64,000 nucleotides of DNA from Verrucomicrobiota bacterium (lineage in GTDB: Bacteria; Verrucomicrobiota; Verrucomicrobiia; Limisphaerales; VHDF01), in contig VHDF01000018.1 of the NCBI GenBank assembly GCA_016871495.1, forward strand, positions 1-64,000. Reading direction: 5' to 3'. The notes below the pieces were generated by a model, which saw only the letters and a program-made list of their open reading frames with translations, was not told where the DNA came from and did no database searches. Within the stretch, counting starts at the first letter, position 1; each line of letters opens with the position of its first letter. This document shows, one piece after another, positions 51,607-63,014 of this stretch. Made by a program: the position numbers and the translations under genes.

Positions 51607-53950
51607 TTATTGCTTGGGCAGGAAACTGCGATAGTACCGGTTGGTGGCGACCCCGGTGATGTTGAGGGCGAAGCTAAAGTTCGGCAGTCCGGCACTGTTG
51701 GTCACGAGCGAAACCCAATCGATCAGGTTGGTCGAACTCTGAATCACGTGCCGTTCTCCCGCGTTGCCCTTGATCCGAAGCTGCAGCCGATTGGTGGCTT
51801 CCCGGGAAAGGGCGAGTGAGTGCACCCCGAAAGGCGGAAACACCGCGAATCCCTGCACATTCGCGCCCGTGGCGGTCGTGAAACTCCCGCCCACGTAATA
51901 CGTGCCCCCCTCCACGAGCGCCACGGAAAAAACCTGGTTGTTGAACGCCGGAGCCCAGCCAAAATCCGACGCGTTCGTCAGACTTAAAGCCGCCAACCGG
52001 TTCCGAGCCTGCCCATTCACCGAGCCAAACTGACCGCCCACGAACAAGTATCCGTTCATGATGCGAAGCATTTCCACCGTGCGGTCCGTCGGCGTGACCC
52101 AATCGGTGGCAAGACCCGTGCGGACGTCCAAAGCCGCCAGATTGGTCCGGAACTGAGACCCGATGCTCGCAAACGCGCCCCCCACGAAAATCCGACTTCC
52201 ATCCAGAGCCAAAGCGCGCACCTCTCCCTGCGCGAACGGATTCCACGGCGTCACCGCGCCGGTGGCCAAATTCACCGCGCCCAAATTGAAACGCTGACGA
52301 GCGCTGAGCGAATTGAAATTCCCCCCCACGTAGAGCACTTGCTCGGTCGCGGTCAGCGCAAACACCGTTCCGTTGGGGTTGGGCGCAAGATCTCCCACCG
52401 CGCCCGTGTTCAAATCGAGGGACGCCAAATTGGTTCGAGTCACCCCACCCACCGATTGAAAGGTTCCCCCCACAAAGAGGCGGCCCGCCCCGACATGGAC
52501 CACTTCCACCACCCCATTCGGATTCGGCGACCAAGGCAAAACTTCCCCCGTGTCCGCATGAACCGCGACCAGATTCGTCCGAGCCAATCCTCCTACCTTG
52601 GTGAACTCTCCGCCAACGTAAAGCCGCTGCTCGGAATAAACCGTGGAAAACACGCTCCCAACGGTTTCGTTGGTCCCTTCCAACCTCAAGCTTGGATTCC
52701 AGGGAAGAATTTGCCCTGACAATTCATCCAGCACGGCCAAACCGCTTCTGCGTTCTCCCCCGATCGAGTTGAAGCTGCCCCCGACATAAATCGCATTCGT
52801 GGTCGCGGCCATCGCATTCAAAGCGCCTCCTATCTCGGAAGCCCAATCGGCCGAAAGATTGTCGTTGGACAACTCAATCGCCGCCGCGTTGGAACGCGGG
52901 TTGCCGCCGAAACGTGTGAATTGCCCCCCCCACAAATAACCGGCTCCCATTCGACGCCATCGTCCGCACTTCTCCGTCCACTCCAAAATCAAACCCATTC
53001 TGTCCCGTCGCCGGATCCAAAGAGGCAAATCCACGCCGCGGCTGGGAGGCGATGTTGGTGAATGTGCCTCCCACATAAATCCGCGATCCAGCCCGCAAAA
53101 CTGCATGGACCGGACCATCCGGGTTCGGCGCCCAAGCAGACACGGTGTCGGTAAAAGGATCCACTTTCGCCAAATTCAGCCGGGCCACGCCGGAAATAGC
53201 ACTGAAGCTCCCCCCGACGATCAATTCGTCGTTCGCGTAGGCCATCGCATTGACACGGCCGACCGGACGCGGATCCCAATCCGTCACCGCGCCGGTCACG
53301 GCATCAATCGCCGCCAAGTTCGTCCTGGATTCACTCGAAATCTGGTTGAACGCACCGCCGATAAACAGGCGCGATCCAAAACTGGCCAAAGCATGCACCG
53401 GACCGGTCGGATTCGGCGCCAAGGCCAGGACGGCACCCGAAGCCGGGTTGAGCGCCGCCAGATTCGTCCGCGGCGCCGCCACGGCTCCGACGCCAAAACG
53501 GGTGAATGCGCCACCCGCGTAAAGAACATTACCCGCAAGCAACAGGGTGTGGACGGGTCCGTTGACGTTGGGATTAAACGAAGTCGTGACCGTTCGATCC
53601 GAGCGAATATGAGCCAGATTGTTCCGCGCCGTTCCTCCCACGGCGGTGAACGAGCCCCCGACAAACCATCCGCCCGCGCCATCGCTCACCGCCGCGTTGA
53701 GGGTTCCCGTCACGGTCGGCATCTCCAAGTCCGGAGTCCCCATCTCAGCGCTAAGCGTGGTGCCTCCGGCTGCCCCAAAACCAATGGCGGAGAAACTTCC
53801 CCCCAAATAAATCTTCCCGTTGGTGGCAATCACTGAAAACACGGGGTCATCCGCCGTCCAAAAGTCACGGCGAGGACTATTGGCGGGCTGGGCAAACATG
53901 CCGGTGGAAACCCATAAGAACGCCAGCAACGCAATCAGGATCTTTTTCAT
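51607..53950 (-). pseudogene. Delta-60 repeat secreted protein, apparent frameshift in a G8 tract
   Basis: From ATG 53950 (signal peptide LIALLAFLWVSTGMFAQ) the frame encodes delta-60-type repeats such as GRVNAMAYANDELIVGGSFS and NPDGPVHAVLRAGSRIYVGG up to SRLFVGG. It then shifts at the eight-C run 52924-52931 (G8 in the gene). The other frame continues QFTRFGGNPRSNAAAIELS and further repeats to the end at 51607. Removing one G gives an uninterrupted 780-residue protein with about a dozen beta-propeller-like repeats and a C-terminal beta domain (SSTNLIDWVS). Such proteins are large exported surface proteins of unknown function. The tract may be a sequencing error or a phase-variable switch. 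Confidence 0.85.
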
Positions 53951-54237
53951 GTCATGTGTTCTGAGATCGAATCTTGCCGCATCACGACACGGGTCCATTC
54001 CCGCGTAGCCAATCGGCCCAATGGCACTCCCCGAGCAAGCAACGATGGTTCTCATAACTCGCAACGGAGATTCAAGCCAGTCCAATGTCGGCAGTTTTCA
54101 CAAACGTAAGACTCGCCCCTACAAGCAGTTCATCGGCCAAATCCGAATCTCCCTTAGAATAATGTGGGAAGTGATTTGCCCCCAGCGGGATAGAGGCTGG
54201 AGCTTTGCGTCAAATCGCCGCGCTTCCCAATCCGGTT

Positions 54238-56004
54238 CTAAAGCAAGACCACTTTTCGATCGAGATCGGGTGAACCGGAACCCGTGTCACAATCTAAGGC
54301 CTTGGGCTCAAACTCTTTGCACCACCCTTTGATCTCCGTATCGTTGAAGATCTTACCCATCACCCGACGCAGAAGGCCCTTCAAACTTGGATGCTCCAAA
54401 CTCGCCAGGGAACGGACTGCCTCTTCTTTGTAGGTTTCCAGCAGGGTGCGGACGCGTTCTTCAACTTTGAGTTCGGCGTAAATCGATTCCATGCCCTTGC
54501 AACTTCCCGAGGAGAGATCCCTGCGCCACAGTTTCTCCAGTCGGTCGCGGTGCTCCGCCTGGGAAGCTCGTTCGTAAGCACTCGCTAGGACGACGCTGGG
54601 CCGCATACCCGCCAAATCATTCGACTCGGAAGATCCACCCAAGTCGTCGAGATCGTCTCGAATCTGATAAGCGATGCCCAGGGCCTCCGAGTAAGCATGG
54701 AGCGAGTCCCGGACTTCGTCATGCTGTTGCACCCCGGCACAGAGCGAGCCGAGGCGCAACGCGACCTCGAACGCGGGAGCGGTCTTCCGCCGGAAAATAT
54801 CCAGCACCTGGAGGGTCGTCATCGGCTTCGGCTCCCTGGCCCAAATCAGCTCCGCTCCTTGCCCACGGCAAAGTTCGCGCTGCCCCTCGGTGGCGGCAAG
54901 CACCATCGCCGAGGTTTGCCGGGTGCTGAACTTGCTCGAAGCCAACAAACGATAACCCTCCCCGATCAACAGATCCCCCACATTCAAAGCCACCGCAACT
55001 CCATGCTCCTCGTGGAGCGTTTTCTCCCCATACCGGCTCGCGTCCCCATCCTCGATGTCATCGTGAATCAACGACGCTTTGTGAAAACACTCCACCGCGA
55101 CCGCGACTTTCTTCAAATCCTCCGGCAAGGGCCCGCCCGGGTCATCCCGCAGCGCCTGGAATGCGGACGCGGTCAAGAACGGACGCCACCGCTTGCCCGC
55201 CCGCATAAGCCAGTCCTTGGCAATCTGCTCCGTGCGGGATTCGCTCGGACCGAGGATCAAATCCAGTGAGGCCGGGGAAAACCAAAAATCAATCTCCTCG
55301 CGCAACGCCGCCAAATCCATCCGCCGGGTCTTGTCCTCGCTGGTCAAATGAATGTAGTCCCAGACCCAATCCAAATCGACGTTGGTGTCGATGCAGTCGT
55401 CTTGAAGCAACGGCACCGCCACGCCCGGAACCGCCGCGGCTTCCATGTAGGGAAACGCCCGTTCCAACACGCTGAGACAACTGACACCCACAATGGCCTC
55501 AATCTTGCCGGTCTGAATCAAGGACATGACGATGGCAGAGCCCTCCGCTACCAGAACAGCATATCCCAAACGTTCGGCTTCGACCTGCAAGTCCTGAATC
55601 GAGCACAACCCGCATTGCTTGCACAACAGCCCAAACTCATCAAACGGCGCCGGGCATTTGCTCTCCACGCGCAGGCATTTCGGAAGCAGCAGCAGCCTCC
55701 GCTCGTAAGGAACACTGGCCAGTTGCTCGCGCCAAATCTCGTTGTTGAGAAGCACCCCCACATAATCTCGGTAAATCGGATCGCAACCCAGCGCGGCAAT
55801 CATCCGGTCCGCATGCACCTTCAATTGCGCTAGTGGCAACGGCGGAACAGGGTTGAATTCCGCGACGTAATGACGCACCGCATGAAGGACACGGGTCCTC
55901 TCTTCGGGCGTTTGCGGTATGTTCTTCTTGGGCGGTCTGGCCTTCTGTTGAGGCACCGGGCGCGGCAAGGCGAGAGGCGCGAAAGAAATGGAACTCGTGT
56001 GCAT
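54238..56004 (-). CDS. DUF116-polyprenyl synthetase fusion protein
   Basis: This 588-residue cytoplasmic protein starts at ATG 56004 (TTG 56019 is in frame). The N-terminal half resembles DUF116: cysteines in LLPKCLRVESKCPAPFD and GLLCKQCGLC (near residues 110, 117, 128, 131, 134), then VSCLSVLERAFPYM and LLQDDCIDTN. The C-terminal half is a trans-isoprenyl diphosphate synthase with GKRWRP, the first Asp-rich motif DDIED (315-319), and the second DDLDD (450-454). Chain length cannot be deduced. The conserved cysteines suggest a metal or Fe-S site that could couple redox state to prenyl chain synthesis. It is the last gene of the cluster. Confidence 0.9.
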   Translation of the reverse strand: MHTSSISFAPLALPRPVPQQKARPPKKNIPQTPEERTRVLHAVRHYVAEFNPVPPLPLAQLKVHADRMIAALGCDPIYRDYVGVLLNNEIWREQLASVPYERRLLLLPKCLRVESKCPAPFDEFGLLCKQCGLCSIQDLQVEAERLGYAVLVAEGSAIVMSLIQTGKIEAIVGVSCLSVLERAFPYMEAAAVPGVAVPLLQDDCIDTNVDLDWVWDYIHLTSEDKTRRMDLAALREEIDFWFSPASLDLILGPSESRTEQIAKDWLMRAGKRWRPFLTASAFQALRDDPGGPLPEDLKKVAVAVECFHKASLIHDDIEDGDASRYGEKTLHEEHGVAVALNVGDLLIGEGYRLLASSKFSTRQTSAMVLAATEGQRELCRGQGAELIWAREPKPMTTLQVLDIFRRKTAPAFEVALRLGSLCAGVQQHDEVRDSLHAYSEALGIAYQIRDDLDDLGGSSESNDLAGMRPSVVLASAYERASQAEHRDRLEKLWRRDLSSGSCKGMESIYAELKVEERVRTLLETYKEEAVRSLASLEHPSLKGLLRRVMGKIFNDTEIKGWCKEFEPKALDCDTGSGSPDLDRKVVLL

Positions 56005-56019
56005 AACCTGTGCGAGCAA

Positions 56020-57360
56020 TCAACCGCTGACGCCAGCCTTCTCAGGCGAACCGGCCGCCGAGGCCGTCCTGGGAGAGCTGGGCTGGGACAAAGTTATCCC
56101 TTGGTTTCCAGCCGGGTCGAGCATCGATTTCAAGGCTTTGAGTCGAGTCCCCGGCTCCGGTGGCGTCCGGTCGTAAGCCCGGAAATCATTGAACCAATAC
56201 TTCTTGGCAAGGCGATACATCCAATGACGTTCAGGAATCTCCTCCCCCGGCAGCCATTGACTGAAACGGGGCTTCATGGCGGCCAGTTCAACCATCGCAG
56301 TGCCGCGCAAGGTCGTGTCCCGGGCTTGATGCCGGCGCGCCAGGTCCGCCACCAAATCCGGACGTTCCAGGACGACGCATCCCCGAGTCGCCCCCGCCGT
56401 GGTTTCCCGGAAGTCCTTCAAGAAGGCACTGCTGCGAATGGCCTCAAAGACACCCCGGTCATCGCGAATGTTCTCCGTCGCAAACTGCAGAATCGGACAA
56501 GGCTCGATCCAGCCTCCCGGACCCACATGGTGACTCACCCCCGTCGCCATGGGACACAATGCCTTGCCCACATGATCGTAATACGCGTCCAGCATGCCGA
56601 TGGGCATGCGGCAACGCATTTCGACGATGAACCGCCGAACCCGAACCAGCTGGTCAGGTCGCAATGCAAGTTCGGCACTCATCTTGGGCCCAACCGGACG
56701 GTAAGTGTGGTACCAGACGTAGTGAACACCTCGTCGAATCAACTCGCGCAGCCACGCTTCGGAGAGCAAATCATCGATATTCGACTGGCAAACACTGGTG
56801 GCAACACCGGTGAGGAGTTTCTCGCGCAAGCACGCGTCGAGCCCCCGCAAGGTTCGATTCAAAACGTCCGCCTTGCCCCGGCGCTCGTCGCTCGCCACTT
56901 CCAATCCCTCGATGCTGACCAACGGCGTCGCGTTGCCTATCTGACGCAACTTTCGCGCAACCTTGTCGGTAATGAATTGGCCGTTGGTAAAAACCTGAAA
57001 ATACGCGTCCGGATGGCTGGCCAGTAACTCAAGCAAATCCGGATGCATGAAGGGCTCCCCGCCCAGGATCCCGAAGAACGAATTCCCGTGCGCCTTCGCG
57101 TCGCGGATGGTGCGATTGAGCAGACCCAGGTCAATTTGAGTCCGCTCCGCCTCAACATCCACCCAGCACCCCTGGCACCTCAGATTGCAGGAGTTCAAGA
57201 TGGAGAGATACAGGAACGGGGGAAAATACTCTCCCCGCCGGGCGCGCCGCTTGAAACGTTCCACACTGAGCATGCCCTTCCAACCGAAGTTCCAGGCGAA
57301 CTTCGCCAGCAACCTCGGATCCACGGTCCGCATAATCCGCCATGTCAACGCGGGCAACAT
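56020..57360 (-). CDS. Radical SAM protein with SPASM-like C-terminus
   Basis: This 446-residue protein has the cluster motif SCNLRCQGC (C58, C62, C65 from ATG 57360), followed by GILGGEPFMHPDLLELLA and VFTNGQFITDKVARKL, which are SAM- and cluster-binding strands. The C-terminal half has further cysteines in KALCPMATG, WIEPCPILQF and TRGCVVLE that could hold an auxiliary cluster. A TTG at 57366 is also in frame. The plan is similar to HpnH-like and SPASM enzymes. The stop lies 15 bases before the next start (56004), so it is co-transcribed with the prenyl synthetase gene. The substrate is unknown. Confidence 0.9.
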   Translation of the reverse strand: MLPALTWRIMRTVDPRLLAKFAWNFGWKGMLSVERFKRRARRGEYFPPFLYLSILNSCNLRCQGCWVDVEAERTQIDLGLLNRTIRDAKAHGNSFFGILGGEPFMHPDLLELLASHPDAYFQVFTNGQFITDKVARKLRQIGNATPLVSIEGLEVASDERRGKADVLNRTLRGLDACLREKLLTGVATSVCQSNIDDLLSEAWLRELIRRGVHYVWYHTYRPVGPKMSAELALRPDQLVRVRRFIVEMRCRMPIGMLDAYYDHVGKALCPMATGVSHHVGPGGWIEPCPILQFATENIRDDRGVFEAIRSSAFLKDFRETTAGATRGCVVLERPDLVADLARRHQARDTTLRGTAMVELAAMKPRFSQWLPGEEIPERHWMYRLAKKYWFNDFRAYDRTPPEPGTRLKALKSMLDPAGNQGITLSQPSSPRTASAAGSPEKAGVSG

Positions 57361-57480
57361 ACTCAACTTCGGATTCGGTCACCGAGACCGGCCACGCCTC
57401 GACCAGCGTGCCTGTGGCTTCAAGACCGAAACGGTCCCCATTCGGTTTCGAAAAATCATGGGCAGGACCCGCGGCATGTC

Positions 57481-58335
57481 TCAAGCCTCGGGCATTTGCC
57501 CCAAGTGACGAGCGGCGCGCTGCCTCGCCTCCTCCGCCTTGCGCGCAATTTCCTCGGGCGACGGCAGGCTCATCAGCACTTCCCGAGGAACGTCCGCCGT
57601 CAACTGGGCCAGCTTGGTCAAGCACTTTTGCCGCTCGGCCAGCGCCTTGTCGGAGTCGCGTTCCTTGGAAAACCGGCTCTTGGCCCGCTCGCTCCTCGTG
57701 CGGAGCATGTCATACACGTCGCCCCCCAGCAGAGCGGAAATATCAATCTTCATCTTTTCCCGGTTCAAATCGGCGTCGCTCACCTGGTCGCCATTGATCG
57801 GTCCCGACTTGTATTTCGGGAACATGATCGCCGCCTCTGGGCAGACGCGGGAACACGCGGGACAGTTGGTCTTGCATTGATCCAGGTTCTGCGCCTGGAT
57901 TTTTTGCTGCTCGTCCACACCGTAAACCCCGAAGAGACAAAAACTCAAACACTGCATGCAATTGGTGCAGCGATCATAGTCAATCACCGGAAACCAAGGC
58001 TTCCAAAGCCCATGCTCCACTGCCTTGGCCTCTCCCCGACGAGCCTCCACCTTTTCCGCCACCGCCTCCGCGGGCATCCCGCTCACATCCAGAAAACGTG
58101 CCCGATCGGCGCGGTCCATCGGTTCGGGCACCACCGCCCCTTCAAACTGGCCCAGCCACACCGTCTCTCCTCGATCATGGGGAGACACTCGCCCGCCCGG
58201 CTGGGGCCGTGTCAGGGCATATCCCTTCCCCAACAACACGCTCATGGTCTCGAAAAGCGTTTCCCCCGGCCAATGGGACGCCGTTTCGCCTTCGAAAAAG
58301 ACAATTCGCAACGTCGGTTCCGTCAGGGTGCTCAT
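57481..58335 (-). CDS. Two-[4Fe-4S] ferredoxin-like protein
   Basis: This 284-residue protein has about 115 residues before two cluster motifs: CTNCMQCLSFC (C-x2-C-x2-C-x3-C, residues 123-133) and CKTNCPACSRVC (C-x3-C-x2-C-x3-C, 154-165). The C-terminal third is a charged helical region (KAEEARQRAARHLGQMPEA). It is not a simple 8-Fe ferredoxin but a larger cluster-binding protein of the Fd superfamily, probably passing electrons between partners in this operon. Its start overlaps the stop of the upstream HdrA-N-like gene by four bases (58332-58335). There is a 120-base gap before the radical SAM gene. Confidence 0.88.
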   Translation of the reverse strand: MSTLTEPTLRIVFFEGETASHWPGETLFETMSVLLGKGYALTRPQPGGRVSPHDRGETVWLGQFEGAVVPEPMDRADRARFLDVSGMPAEAVAEKVEARRGEAKAVEHGLWKPWFPVIDYDRCTNCMQCLSFCLFGVYGVDEQQKIQAQNLDQCKTNCPACSRVCPEAAIMFPKYKSGPINGDQVSDADLNREKMKIDISALLGGDVYDMLRTRSERAKSRFSKERDSDKALAERQKCLTKLAQLTADVPREVLMSLPSPEEIARKAEEARQRAARHLGQMPEA

Positions 58336-58718
58336 GAGGGCGAAGATTCCGTCGTTTCTTTCCCGGACGGGAGATTCGGCCGCAATTCCGGCCGGCCCAA
58401 AGCCTCGACGATTTCCTGGGCGGGTTGCACACGCATGTTCAAGACTTCAACACGGTCCGAGGTCAGCGGCGCGCCCGCGGAAGCAAAAAGCCACTTCACG
58501 GCCCTGGGAAAACAGGCGGCAATCCGGACACCCCCGCCATTCGGATCCGCCAGTCTTTGCAGGGCGCCATCCTTGCGCGCCGACATTTCACACAAGTCCG
58601 CCACCGCCTCAAACGCCGCCCCGCCGGAACAAAGGTGCCTCAACACGGCTTCCTTCGTCTCCCGCGGAACCACCTGGGCGTAGTTGCAATGACAGTAGAG
58701 AATGCGCGGCGCACTCAT
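58332..58718 (-). CDS. Small HdrA-N-like cysteine protein
   Basis: This 128-residue protein begins SAPRILYCHCNYAQVVPRET and contains C9, C11, C30, C43 and C69. The CHC start, the ADLCEMSARKD segment and RIAACFPRAVKWLF resemble the N-terminal domain of heterodisulfide reductase HdrA (CHCGxN...C...AACSPR), which binds an Fe-S cluster. Here the domain stands alone without the FAD domain. It overlaps the ferredoxin gene by four bases, which implies a direct partnership. The assignment is from pattern recall and is tentative. It could be a cluster-binding adaptor or electron entry point. Confidence 0.6.
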   Translation of the reverse strand: MSAPRILYCHCNYAQVVPRETKEAVLRHLCSGGAAFEAVADLCEMSARKDGALQRLADPNGGGVRIAACFPRAVKWLFASAGAPLTSDRVEVLNMRVQPAQEIVEALGRPELRPNLPSGKETTESSPS

Positions 58719-58807
58719 GGCGAGTTTCTTCTTAAGACAAGATGGCCACCGGGATCCATGTGCGTCTCAAAGCTCGTGCTGGAATTCATATCGGGCCGGG
58801 TTCTCCC

Positions 58808-60001
58808 CTAATCCTCCAACCCCGCCATCCGATGGGTCGGCGTCGGACGGCCCGGACGGAATCGCTCCAGATGTTCCACCCTCATCACGAGGCCCGCCTC
58901 GCTCGCCTCAACCACCCGTGCTCGCACCGTGCTCTGAAGCGCCTCGGCCAAAAGCTCGGGATCTCCCTCGGCCCGCAAATTGAAGGTCAGCTGGCCCGCC
59001 CTGATGGACTCGGGCAATGCCTGGCCTAACTCCGGCACGAAATCGTTTCGCACCACGTTCACAATGCCGAGATCGCCCAACCCGTCACGCGATTCGAGCG
59101 TGATCTTGCAATGAGCGATCTCCAGCCCTCGAGAGGCCAACCATTGCCTCACCCCCTCCGCCAGCTCCCTCAACAGTTGGTTGCCGTCGAAAACACCTGA
59201 CGCCCCTTGACTCTCCACACTCAACGTCGCATTCAGCCACCCCAGCAACGCCTCCCCCTCCGCGTAAACATCGTAATCCACAGGCATAGCCTTCCACCGT
59301 CCGGCTTCTCCCCGCCGCAGGTGATCGAACCATGCGTCCAGTCCCGAACCTTCCCTCGCCGAGACCTGGAAAACGGTGGATTTGGGATGCCTTTCCTGCA
59401 GCGCGTCGCTTAAACGCCGCAATCGCTCGGGAGACAACAGCTCCCGCTTGTTGATCACAATGAGTTCCGCTTCCTCCAACTGCTTGCGGTAAATGTAGAG
59501 AACTTTCTCCGAAAAACTGGAACCGGATTCCAGTCCCAACACGCGTTCAGCCCGGATGGGGTCCACCACGACACTCAAGGGGGCCACCACGAAACGGTCC
59601 CCATAGATCCGCCGCAACGGATAGCTCACCGTCGCCACCAAATCCGTGCAACTGCCGACCGGTTCGGCGAGAATGAACTCGGGCCGAGTCTCCGCCGTCA
59701 ATTGCCTGGCCGCGTCCGTCAGAGAATCGAATCGGCAACAGAAACATCCGCCGGCAATTTCCGCGGTTGAAAAACCCCGCTGCCGGAACCACGCCGTGTC
59801 GACGAGCTCGCTCGCCTGATCATTCGTGATCAAACCTGTCCTTCGCCCTTCGTCACGCAACCGCTCCCCCAACCGCATCATGCAGGTCGTCTTCCCCGCC
59901 CCGAGAAAACCGCCGATCATTACGTAGCGAGCCATCGAATCGCCCAAGTCGGGGACAGCCGGCGCTCGCGTCGTCGCAGGTGCGGAGGAGGAATCGTTCA
60001 T
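58808..60001 (-). CDS. CobW/G3E family GTPase
   Basis: This 397-residue protein has Walker A GGFLGAGKTTC (lysine 37), the metal-chelation motif AGGCFCCRFD (C-x-C-C type), the Walker B-like ILAEPVGSCTD and VINKREL in place of NKxD. The C-terminal domain is COG0523-like. Such GTPases insert or carry metal ions (zinc, cobalt, nickel, iron) for enzymes. Start ATG 60001 overlaps the stop of the GcvH-like gene (ATGA). In this operon it may metallate or activate one of the Fe-S or lipoyl partners. Its target is not known. Confidence 0.92.
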   Translation of the reverse strand: MNDSSSAPATTRAPAVPDLGDSMARYVMIGGFLGAGKTTCMMRLGERLRDEGRRTGLITNDQASELVDTAWFRQRGFSTAEIAGGCFCCRFDSLTDAARQLTAETRPEFILAEPVGSCTDLVATVSYPLRRIYGDRFVVAPLSVVVDPIRAERVLGLESGSSFSEKVLYIYRKQLEEAELIVINKRELLSPERLRRLSDALQERHPKSTVFQVSAREGSGLDAWFDHLRRGEAGRWKAMPVDYDVYAEGEALLGWLNATLSVESQGASGVFDGNQLLRELAEGVRQWLASRGLEIAHCKITLESRDGLGDLGIVNVVRNDFVPELGQALPESIRAGQLTFNLRAEGDPELLAEALQSTVRARVVEASEAGLVMRVEHLERFRPGRPTPTHRMAGLED

Positions 60002-60474
60002 GCGCTGGGATCGGAGTGCTTTTGCTGGGCAAGGATGCGGTCGATCGTGCTGTCGAGCAAGGCCCGATATGCCATCACGTCCAGACTCTTCTCTCCAGGC
60101 TCGCCCTGCACTTCGTACAACCACCCTTCCGTGTAGTTGCTTTCGTGAACCAGAGCGGACTTCTTCGCCAAGGCGGGGTTCATTCCCAGAAAAAGTCCGG
60201 CCGCCGGACAATACAAATCCGAAATCGCCTTGAATCCCTCGACCCATCCCACGATCTTCCCGGGCTGCACGGGCTCGCCTGCCCCGATTTCCAACCCGAC
60301 ATCCACGGTTTCACCCAGCATCCGCACCGCAAACTTGGTCAATCCAACCCTGACCACGCCCTCCGGCATCCTGGACATCCACGCGTGCGCCGGCGTGTAA
60401 AGGTAATCGACAGGCAAATGCGTGACGAACGTCGACCGCTTGTAAAAAACGGTTTTGAGTGGCGGCCTGGACAT
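59998..60474 (-). CDS. GcvH-like lipoyl carrier protein
   Basis: This 158-residue protein resembles the glycine cleavage H protein: YTPAHAWM, VRVGLTKFAVRMLGETVDV and VGWVEGFKAISDLYCPAAG, where lysine 82 is the expected lipoylation site. An N-terminal extension (VFYKRSTFVTHLPVDYL) and a long C-terminus differ from standard GcvH. No gcvT, gcvP or other glycine-cleavage gene is in the window. It overlaps the stop of the glycosyltransferase gene by one base and the start of the CobW gene by four. Family members outside glycine cleavage include lipoyl proteins of the sulfur-oxidising sHdr system, which makes the HdrA-like neighbour notable. Confidence 0.88.
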   Translation of the reverse strand: MSRPPLKTVFYKRSTFVTHLPVDYLYTPAHAWMSRMPEGVVRVGLTKFAVRMLGETVDVGLEIGAGEPVQPGKIVGWVEGFKAISDLYCPAAGLFLGMNPALAKKSALVHESNYTEGWLYEVQGEPGEKSLDVMAYRALLDSTIDRILAQQKHSDPSA

Positions 60475-63014
60475 CAGCCCTGCCCTCCGGCTTGGGATTT
60501 CTTGTTCTGCGCCACCAGGCTCTCCTCCTCGGCCACCTTGTCGAGGAAGACCGCGAAAATCCGTTGCAATCGCTGGCGTTGCTGGTTGAGCCACCAAACC
60601 AGAAACGGCAGTCCCGCCAGAACCAGCCAAACCCACGGCCAGCGACGCGCCAACACACCGGCCACCACCAAACACCCGCCCGCCGCCACGGCGACGATCA
60701 ACCTCGCCGTCAACGTCGGCACCACCTGCAATCGACATCGCAAGACTCGCCTGTTGCCGTGGCGCGATTCCATCACGGTGGTCAGCCGCAACCGGCCCAA
60801 CCGATCGCCCTGGGCTTCCAGGTCATAATCACTCCACCCGGTGTCCGTGCGAATCCGCCAACCCTCCTGCTCAAGCCTCGACGTCAGCCTCCCAAGAAAA
60901 CCCACCCGGTCAAAATCATTTGCGGAATGATAGCAAACTTCGTCCAACCCCGGCTCCGCCTGCCCGCGCGCCATGCTCTCAAAACTGTCCACCGCGCTCG
61001 GAGGCAGTCTTTGCTGAAGGTCGAGCCGGCCGCGATATCGCGCCCACCCTCGCACGATCGGCTGCAACAGGTAGAGGAGAGCAATGAGTGGACGGGACCA
61101 TAATCGCCTTCGGGAACGAGGGACAGCCGCCTGCGCCCCGGCCACCACACACAACACCCCCACCATCACCAGATTGGTCACCGCCACCGGCCACAGGAAC
61201 GGCAACGGAAATGAAACCACGACGAGCGGCAAGCTCACCAGCGCGTGATACTCGATGCTGGTGAACATCAGGAACAAACCGGACGGCCCAGGCCTGTAAA
61301 TAGCCTGGAACATCCCCGTTCCAAACAGTCCATGATAAATCATGGCCGGTCGAAACAGCAGGCTCAGCTTCGCCGGCGAGTAAATCGTGCCCCGCCACAA
61401 ATGACCCCCGATGGCATTGAAGTATTCCGGATGCCGATGAACGAGCAAGGCCTCCGCCTCTCCATATCCCCGCTGCTGCCGCAAATACTCCCCCACCGTG
61501 GAACGCCGATAATGCCAGACGAAACCGCCGGGACTGAACCCGATGCGGAATCCACGCTGCTGCAAACGCCAGCACAAATCCACGTCATCCCCCGCTTTCC
61601 GAAACACCGGGTCGAAACCTCCCACCTCCAGCAAAGCCCAACGGTAAAAAACCATGTTGCAGCCGGGGATATGCTCCGCCTCCCGATCGGTCAGCATCAC
61701 GTGCGCGGGCCCGCCCGGCGAAACCATGACCGCCGCGGCCACCCACGAATCATCGGGCGGCAGGAAATTATGCCCACCCATGCCGGTAAAATCCCCCCGC
61801 AACAAATCCCCCACCACAAAATGCAGCCAATCCTCATCCGCCCGGCAATCCGCGTCCGTAAAGGCGACAAGCTCACCCTGGGCCGCGGCGATCCCCGTGT
61901 TCCGCGCCGCCGATAATCCGCGATTTTCAGCGTGAGGAACATAACGCACGTCCGGAAACTCTGTGGCAATCCGCGCGGTCTCGTCACGCGATCCGTCATC
62001 GACCAGGATCACCTCGTAATCCGGGTAATGCAGCTTCCGCAGCGACGCCAGACACGCCCTCAGCGTCGCCGCCCCTTGATAACTGGCCACCACGACGGAC
62101 ACCTTCGGGCTGCGCGGCAAAGGAAACCTGGGCGCCAGGCCGAACGACCTCGTCACCGCGCCAAAGGCCGGCTTCAGCTCGCGATTCGACCGGGTCAGCC
62201 CAAAGGCCCAGTCCGCCACTTCCACCCCATCCTTGTGCCATTCATCCGTGAAACTGAAAACAATCACGCCCGCCGTGCCCGCGCGGAACGCGGCCTCCAC
62301 CTGCCAACTCAGGATCTCCGCCTGGGCATCCTCCCCCTCCCGAATGCTGTCGATCCCGATTTCCCCAAGCAACAGAGGACGCGCGTCCGCCAGCATCTGC
62401 AACCGGCCGACATAAGCCTCCCAGGACCGCTGGTGATGGAGATAAAGATTGAAGCAGCGAAAATCCGCGCCGCCCGGCGAAAGAAACTCGGTCGTGGGGA
62501 AATTGCCGAACGTGCAGAGTGCTTCCGGATCCACGCGCTTGATCTCGTCGATCAATTCGTCGATGAACCGCTCCACGGCGCGCTGCCCGCTCCACCGCAC
62601 GATGTCCGCCGGGATTTCGTTCACCACGCTGAAGGCAAACACCGCGTGATGGCGGGCACACTGTTCCGCCGCCCGCCGGGCAGCCTCGCGCGCCTCCCGT
62701 TGCAACCTCGGGTCATCGAGGAAACACGCCTCCTTGTTCCAGGGAATGTCGATGAGCAGCCGAAACCCTTGCGTCTCCGCCAAATCGAGGAACCACCGCG
62801 GCGGCACATGATAAACCCGCAGCACATTCGCTCCCAGCCGCCGCAACCCTTCGAAATCGCGCCGCGCCTCCTCCGGCTCGGGAAAAGGCTGGCCGGATCC
62901 ATTCGGGCGAAAGGGCCCGTAGGTGACCCCCTTGACGAAGAACTTCGCGGGCCCCACGCGGAACCCCTTCCCATCCACCGTCACACGGGGAGGCCGGGCA
63001 GGACCGAAGCTCAT
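60474..63014 (-). CDS. Glycoside hydrolase-like / GT2 glycosyltransferase fusion, membrane-bound
   Basis: This 846-residue protein begins with a TIM-barrel region of the GH2/GH5 type (residues about 15-290): GVTYGPFRPNG, LLIDIPWNKEACF, VVNEIPADIV with a candidate acid/base E133 and LLLGEIGIDS with a candidate nucleophile E218. Residues about 303-560 are a GT2 domain (VSVVVASYQGAATLRACLAS, VILVDDGSRDETA, FTDADCRADEDW, GDDVDLCWRLQQRGF). Hydrophobic helices near 590-630, 640-655 and 765-810 follow. It opens the cluster and overlaps the GcvH-like gene. The enzyme could build or remodel a lipid-linked or surface glycan. The substrate is unknown. Confidence 0.9.
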   Translation of the reverse strand: MSFGPARPPRVTVDGKGFRVGPAKFFVKGVTYGPFRPNGSGQPFPEPEEARRDFEGLRRLGANVLRVYHVPPRWFLDLAETQGFRLLIDIPWNKEACFLDDPRLQREAREAARRAAEQCARHHAVFAFSVVNEIPADIVRWSGQRAVERFIDELIDEIKRVDPEALCTFGNFPTTEFLSPGGADFRCFNLYLHHQRSWEAYVGRLQMLADARPLLLGEIGIDSIREGEDAQAEILSWQVEAAFRAGTAGVIVFSFTDEWHKDGVEVADWAFGLTRSNRELKPAFGAVTRSFGLAPRFPLPRSPKVSVVVASYQGAATLRACLASLRKLHYPDYEVILVDDGSRDETARIATEFPDVRYVPHAENRGLSAARNTGIAAAQGELVAFTDADCRADEDWLHFVVGDLLRGDFTGMGGHNFLPPDDSWVAAAVMVSPGGPAHVMLTDREAEHIPGCNMVFYRWALLEVGGFDPVFRKAGDDVDLCWRLQQRGFRIGFSPGGFVWHYRRSTVGEYLRQQRGYGEAEALLVHRHPEYFNAIGGHLWRGTIYSPAKLSLLFRPAMIYHGLFGTGMFQAIYRPGPSGLFLMFTSIEYHALVSLPLVVVSFPLPFLWPVAVTNLVMVGVLCVVAGAQAAVPRSRRRLWSRPLIALLYLLQPIVRGWARYRGRLDLQQRLPPSAVDSFESMARGQAEPGLDEVCYHSANDFDRVGFLGRLTSRLEQEGWRIRTDTGWSDYDLEAQGDRLGRLRLTTVMESRHGNRRVLRCRLQVVPTLTARLIVAVAAGGCLVVAGVLARRWPWVWLVLAGLPFLVWWLNQQRQRLQRIFAVFLDKVAEEESLVAQNKKSQAGGQG

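Follow-up and report, generated by a model that had tools for sequence, protein, structure and literature searches.

A GcvH-like lipoyl-type protein encoded in a conserved operon with isoprenoid genes in Verrucomicrobiota and Planctomycetota

To our knowledge, the use of lipoate is confined to a few carbon-metabolising complexes, glycine cleavage, and sHdr sulfur oxidation. For LbpA, the lipoyl-type protein of the sHdr system, conserved N- and C-terminal cysteines are described (PMC6067878). A fusion of DUF116 to a polyprenyl synthetase has been noted in Psta_0175 of Pirellula staleyi, and electron transfer has been proposed for DUF116 (PMC5898192). This fusion is the only part of the operon treated here that was previously noted; a literature search, with most subscription papers and all preprints outside its range, found no description of the operon itself.

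The window (the whole analysed stretch of 64,000 nucleotides of contig VHDF01000018.1 from a Verrucomicrobiota bacterium) contains on its minus strand a run of six open reading frames (54238-60474), which are transcribed in the order GcvHL (the GcvH-like lipoyl-type carrier), CobW, HdrA-N-like protein, ferredoxin, radical SAM enzyme, and DUF116::polyprenyl synthase. The ATG of CobW at 60001 overlaps the GcvHL stop codon (ATGA), and the start of the ferredoxin gene overlaps the HdrA-N-like gene in the same way. A sequence-only reading of this DNA had grouped the HdrA-N-like, CobW, and GcvH-like genes, and all three are indeed present, with a ferredoxin gene adjoining; they do not stand alone, however, but make up the leading half of a conserved operon that also includes isoprenoid genes. 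That reading had overlooked the prenyl synthase and radical SAM genes next to them and the conservation of the operon as a whole.

At its start, GcvHL shares one base with the preceding gene (60474-63014, minus strand), in whose product a glycoside-hydrolase-like TIM barrel is joined to a family 2 glycosyltransferase. This protein scores 177.7 bits against the mycofactocin MftF model (cut-off 280), and a homologue of its gene adjoining the operon was not found in the other loci examined. At the other end (51607-54085, minus strand), two overlapping ORFs of 503 and 403 aa share a repeated VGG..FT..GG..R.NLA motif in different frames and look like one repeat-propeller gene broken by a frameshift.

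GcvHL (158 aa; 59998-60474, minus strand) contains the stretch VEGFKAISDLY, such that the putative lipoyl lysine is kept, as had been claimed. This residue, K82 in the motif EGFKA (codon at 60229-60231, minus strand), is invariant in the GcvHL alignment and is present in 108 of 108 GcvHL proteins, whereas the canonical copies exhibit ESVK. Lipoylation of GcvHL is possible, since three PF03099 proteins (LipB/LplA/BirA-type) are encoded elsewhere in the genome. The protein passes the Pfam GCV_H model (67.4 bits, cut-off 22) and fails the NCBIfam gcvH equivalog (68.6 bits, cut-off 115.85). Across 58 genomes of the order, nearly all of which possess canonical gcvH copies, the scores of the GcvHL profile fall into two separate classes: 30 genomes reach 119-268 bits, whereas the canonical copies do not exceed 85 bits. 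The tree, which has 59 rows, places GcvHL on one side of a branch (99/94) that was recovered in 100% of 200 bootstrap trees, and the canonical gcvH of the same genome falls outside this clade.

No glycine-cleavage gene is situated near GcvHL, again as previously read, and the gcvT-gcvH genes of this genome are found on contig C33. That GcvHL might be a redundant H protein of glycine cleavage, or a lipoyl relay, situated in the operon by chance, would agree with the common fold family (67 bits to GCV_H) and with PDB matches that are all GcvH; it is nevertheless very unlikely in view of the separate clade, the bimodal scores, the change from ESVK to EGFK, the canonical gcvT-gcvH elsewhere, and neighbours that are fixed in two phyla. 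Firm grouping with glycine-cleavage GcvH, combined with gcvT/gcvP elsewhere and no other gcvH in the genome, had been named as the outcome that would speak for glycine cleavage; the analysis instead returned a clade of its own and a gcvH elsewhere. The separateness from glycine cleavage thus holds, and GcvHL is, judged by its sequence, not a glycine-cleavage H protein.

Concerning the HdrA-N-like protein (128 aa; 58332-58718, minus strand), no family of Pfam, NCBIfam, or PHROG was matched, and PDB searches with its sequence or profile returned nothing useful. Its invariant cysteines C9, C11, C43, and C69 correspond to positions 10, 12, 45, and 70 in the N-terminal domains of HdrA homologues. 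A global profile comparison with these homologues scores 20.5, whereas 60 column shuffles reach no more than 5.6. Local hhalign gives a probability of 17% over 37 columns, and Foldseek with the AlphaFold model (pLDDT 92) returns HdrA chains as its two top-ranked matches, albeit with weak E-values (0.015 and 0.026). Cysteine spacing, profile score, and Foldseek ranks therefore bear out the name given to this small protein, the gene of which is conserved in 34 of the 58 genomes of the order. Its partner, a 2x[4Fe-4S] ferredoxin-type protein (284 aa; 57481-58335, minus strand) with matches to Fer4 families and conserved cysteines, forms one fused protein with the HdrA-N-like domain at distant loci. 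The FAD/thioredoxin-reductase-like domain of HdrA is absent from both proteins.

The operon contains an HdrA-N-like domain only, without any HdrB or HdrC homologue, which agrees with the earlier statement, and a genome-wide search for an HdrB/HdrC cluster did not find one; the CCG proteins of the genome are two GlcF-like proteins (by eye) and one fragment. The only cysteine in GcvHL of the window follows the lysine by 7 residues. Among its relatives, 82% have a C-terminal cysteine, and no N-terminal cysteine exceeds 30%. Since the GcvHL tree holds no LbpA sequences, the comparison with LbpA rests on the cysteine rule of PMC6067878. An sHdr/LbpA-like system for sulfur oxidation that has lost HdrB and HdrC, or never had them, would explain why a lipoyl-type protein adjoins an HdrA-N-like Fe-S protein, but we regard it as extremely unlikely: the HdrA FAD domain and an HdrB/HdrC cluster are missing, the N- and C-terminal cysteines of LbpA (PMC6067878) are absent from the window protein, and the linked genes are isoprenoid genes, not sulfurtransferases. 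A system distinct from sHdr, as had been proposed, is likewise indicated by the missing HdrB/HdrC and by the isoprenoid gene linkage.

The remaining two genes of the run encode a radical SAM enzyme (448 aa; 56020-57366, minus strand; PF04055, 45.1 bits) and the DUF116::polyprenyl synthase fusion (593 aa; 54238-56019, minus strand; PF01976, 124 bits; PF00348, 138 bits). In the former, C60, C64, and C67 as well as the extra C-terminal cysteines C271, C290, and C330 are invariant in 39 of 39 sequences. In the latter, which is a fusion in nearly all loci, the DUF116 cysteines C115, C122, C133, C136, C139, C181, and C209 are kept in 52-53 of 53 sequences; the same applies, per residue, to the aspartate-rich motif DDIED of the synthase, and DD455/456 is kept as well. 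The residues preceding DDIED are small (A315, S316), which, by known chain-length rules, suggests a prenyl diphosphate of C20 or longer as the putative product. The two domain fusions (HdrA-N-like/ferredoxin and DUF116/synthase) indicate a joint function of the fused parts.

The core of the operon is made up of the HdrA-N-like protein, the ferredoxin, the radical SAM enzyme, the DUF116::polyprenyl synthase, a toroid, and a DXDD class II cyclase. The toroid is of the prenyltransferase type without the conserved zinc cysteine, and its profile matches the beta subunits of Rab GGTase and FTase (E 1.5e-5). The terpene-cyclase-like protein possesses DXDD in 19 of 19 full-length copies and scores 93.9 bits against TIGR01507 (squalene-hopene cyclase), far under the cut-off of 431. 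In the genome of the window, neither is part of the operon: the cyclase is encoded on contig C40, and contig C142 has a toroid fragment at its edge. Directly beside this cyclase gene, a DCC1-like thiol-disulfide oxidoreductase (PF04134, 66 bits) is encoded (L146:3828-4319, minus strand).

The operon set recurs across Verrucomicrobiota and in genomes of the second phylum sampled (loci L241, L246, L249-L251, L253-L255, and L258), which is defined by L224, a Rhodopirellula-titled MAG that falls in Planctomycetota. Among 54 GcvHL loci, each with at least 6 kb downstream, CobW was counted in 49, the HdrA-N-like protein in 45, the ferredoxin in 43, DUF116 with synthase in 36, the radical SAM enzyme in 35, cysteine desulfurase and the prenyltransferase-type toroid in 34 each, and a squalene-cyclase-like protein in 18, the locus collections overlapping (e.g., L046 = L216), such that not all locus counts are independent. 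The gene spacing is typical of an operon: GcvHL and CobW are separated by a median gap of 33 bp and lie within 300 bp on the same strand in 83 of the 88 loci with both; the same distance and orientation are found for the HdrA-N-like and ferredoxin genes in 109 of 112 loci. GcvHL and the HdrA-N-like protein occur together in 29 of the 58 genomes of the order and are both missing in 23, with the HdrA-N-like protein alone in 5 and GcvHL alone in 1 (Fisher p 3e-10, uncorrected for phylogeny). Chance adjacency of GcvHL and its neighbours was rejected.

Since the operon recurs usually with the toroid and often with the DXDD cyclase, the lipoyl/HdrA-N pair is assigned to an isoprenoid pathway, and GcvHL is very probably a member of this conserved pathway and operon. 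Exceptions exist: one genome that is 95% complete (G026) has the HdrA-N-like gene without GcvHL, and deep Verrucomicrobiota relatives (L102-L110) contain the core but have neither GcvHL nor CobW within about 9 kb of it, so that the carrier is either dispensable in places or encoded elsewhere there. In L102-L139, the core adjoins PQQ-type beta-propellers, an NHL protein, NapG/NapH-like Fe-S proteins, and a LolCDE-like ABC transporter, and these neighbours hint that the product serves redox reactions in the membrane or periplasm. In four loci (L038, L041, L044, L047), unrelated genes, e.g., a DUF820/Uma2-looking and a GIY-YIG-looking ORF (by eye), are situated between ferredoxin and radical SAM gene, suggesting a frequent insertion spot. 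A second kind of GcvH-like protein, with the motif ESSKALS or ESTKASS, was seen in the phylum of L224 (L240, L244, L245, L247, L252, L256, L257); it adjoins ferredoxin, cyclase and, in some loci, CobW genes, and forms a branch distinct from both GcvHL and canonical GcvH. In the cultured Chthoniobacter flavus Ellin428, gcvHL, desulfurase, HdrA-N-like, ferredoxin, and a radical SAM homologue are found at one locus (L174), and a DUF116 protein whose reading frame has room for the synthase fusion is encoded elsewhere (L230), so the proposed pathway may be testable in a cultured organism.

The CobW-family metallochaperone-type GTPase (58808-60001, minus strand; PF02492, 79.6 bits) possesses the P-loop GGFLGAGKTT and the CxCC metal site GCFCC (within GGCFCC), both invariant in 17 of 17 copies. 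According to the main rival explanation, the cysteine desulfurase acts with GcvHL and CobW as a module for Fe-S/metal cofactor maturation or sulfur supply, in which lipoyl-GcvHL carries sulfur or shields clusters, whereas the terpenoid chemistry is performed by the downstream Fe-S proteins only. Such a module would fit a desulfurase that is divergently adjacent in 34 of the 54 GcvHL loci, or situated inside the run (L114, L255), and a CobW that retains GCFCC; its absence beside the core in deep lineages is as expected of an accessory. Desulfurases closely similar to IscS/NifS are common genes, however, no scaffold or carrier gene such as IscU or SufBCD was noticed in the operon, and we know of no case in which lipoate supplies the sulfur for Fe-S assembly; we consider this explanation unlikely.

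Beyond the gene identities, operon structure, recurrence in two phyla, co-inheritance, separation from GcvH, and intact synthase and cyclase motifs established here, the best overall explanation, to which we assign a probability of about 0.55, is that GcvHL is a lipoyl-type carrier dedicated to the pathway of this conserved isoprenoid operon, with a CobW metallochaperone of its own. In this pathway, the DUF116::synthase would make a prenyl diphosphate of C20 or longer, and the HdrA-N-like/ferredoxin pair, together with the radical SAM enzyme and DUF116, would modify the prenyl chain by a reductive or radical reaction, the kind of chemistry being a guess. The putative lipoyl dithiol of GcvHL would act as a swinging arm that moves electrons or a sulfur atom between the Fe-S proteins, a redox or sulfur role that we propose tentatively. 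CobW would load metal, the cysteine desulfurase beside GcvHL in many relatives would supply sulfur, and the cyclase would complete the product. It is possible, although somewhat less likely than not, that lipoyl-GcvHL cooperates with the ferredoxin, the HdrA-N-like protein, DUF116, and the radical SAM enzyme in reducing or sulfurating the prenyl chain before cyclisation, leading to an undescribed terpenoid cofactor or membrane lipid in Verrucomicrobiota and Planctomycetota. Of the separate lipoyl-linked redox reaction put forward in the sequence-only reading, the separation from glycine cleavage and sHdr stands and a redox role appears plausible, but the isoprenoid operon context was missing. 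If the carrier reading is true, a lipoyl-type carrier of a terpenoid operon in two phyla would constitute a new use of lipoate, would provide first functional leads for DUF116 and the stand-alone HdrA-N-like domain, and would point to an undescribed terpenoid of PVC bacteria.

Compared with described systems, the operon is similar to sHdr-LbpA (PMC6067878, PMC10332631) in that a single GcvH-like lipoyl-type protein, distinct from GcvH, is encoded with Hdr-type Fe-S and radical SAM proteins. It differs in lacking HdrB/HdrC, the FAD part of HdrA, and the cysteine pair of LbpA, and in possessing isoprenoid genes. For LbpA of sHdr, modification solely by its own lipoate ligase, with the gene in the vicinity, is expected; no lipoate ligase or LipS1/LipS2 genes were identified in the run. 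With GcvH of glycine cleavage, GcvHL has the fold family and the lipoyl lysine in common, but it differs in clade and motif (EGFKA versus ESVK) and has no gcvT or gcvP nearby. Psta_0175 exhibits the same domain fusion as the window protein, whereas the consulted passages of its description (PMC5898192) make no mention of an operon, a lipoyl-type carrier, an HdrA-N-like protein, or cyclases. Class II terpene cyclases, including squalene-hopene cyclases, share DXDD(T) with the operon cyclase; the latter differs from squalene-hopene cyclases in its sub-cut-off score and in being paired with a polyprenyl synthase and a GGTase-beta-related toroid.
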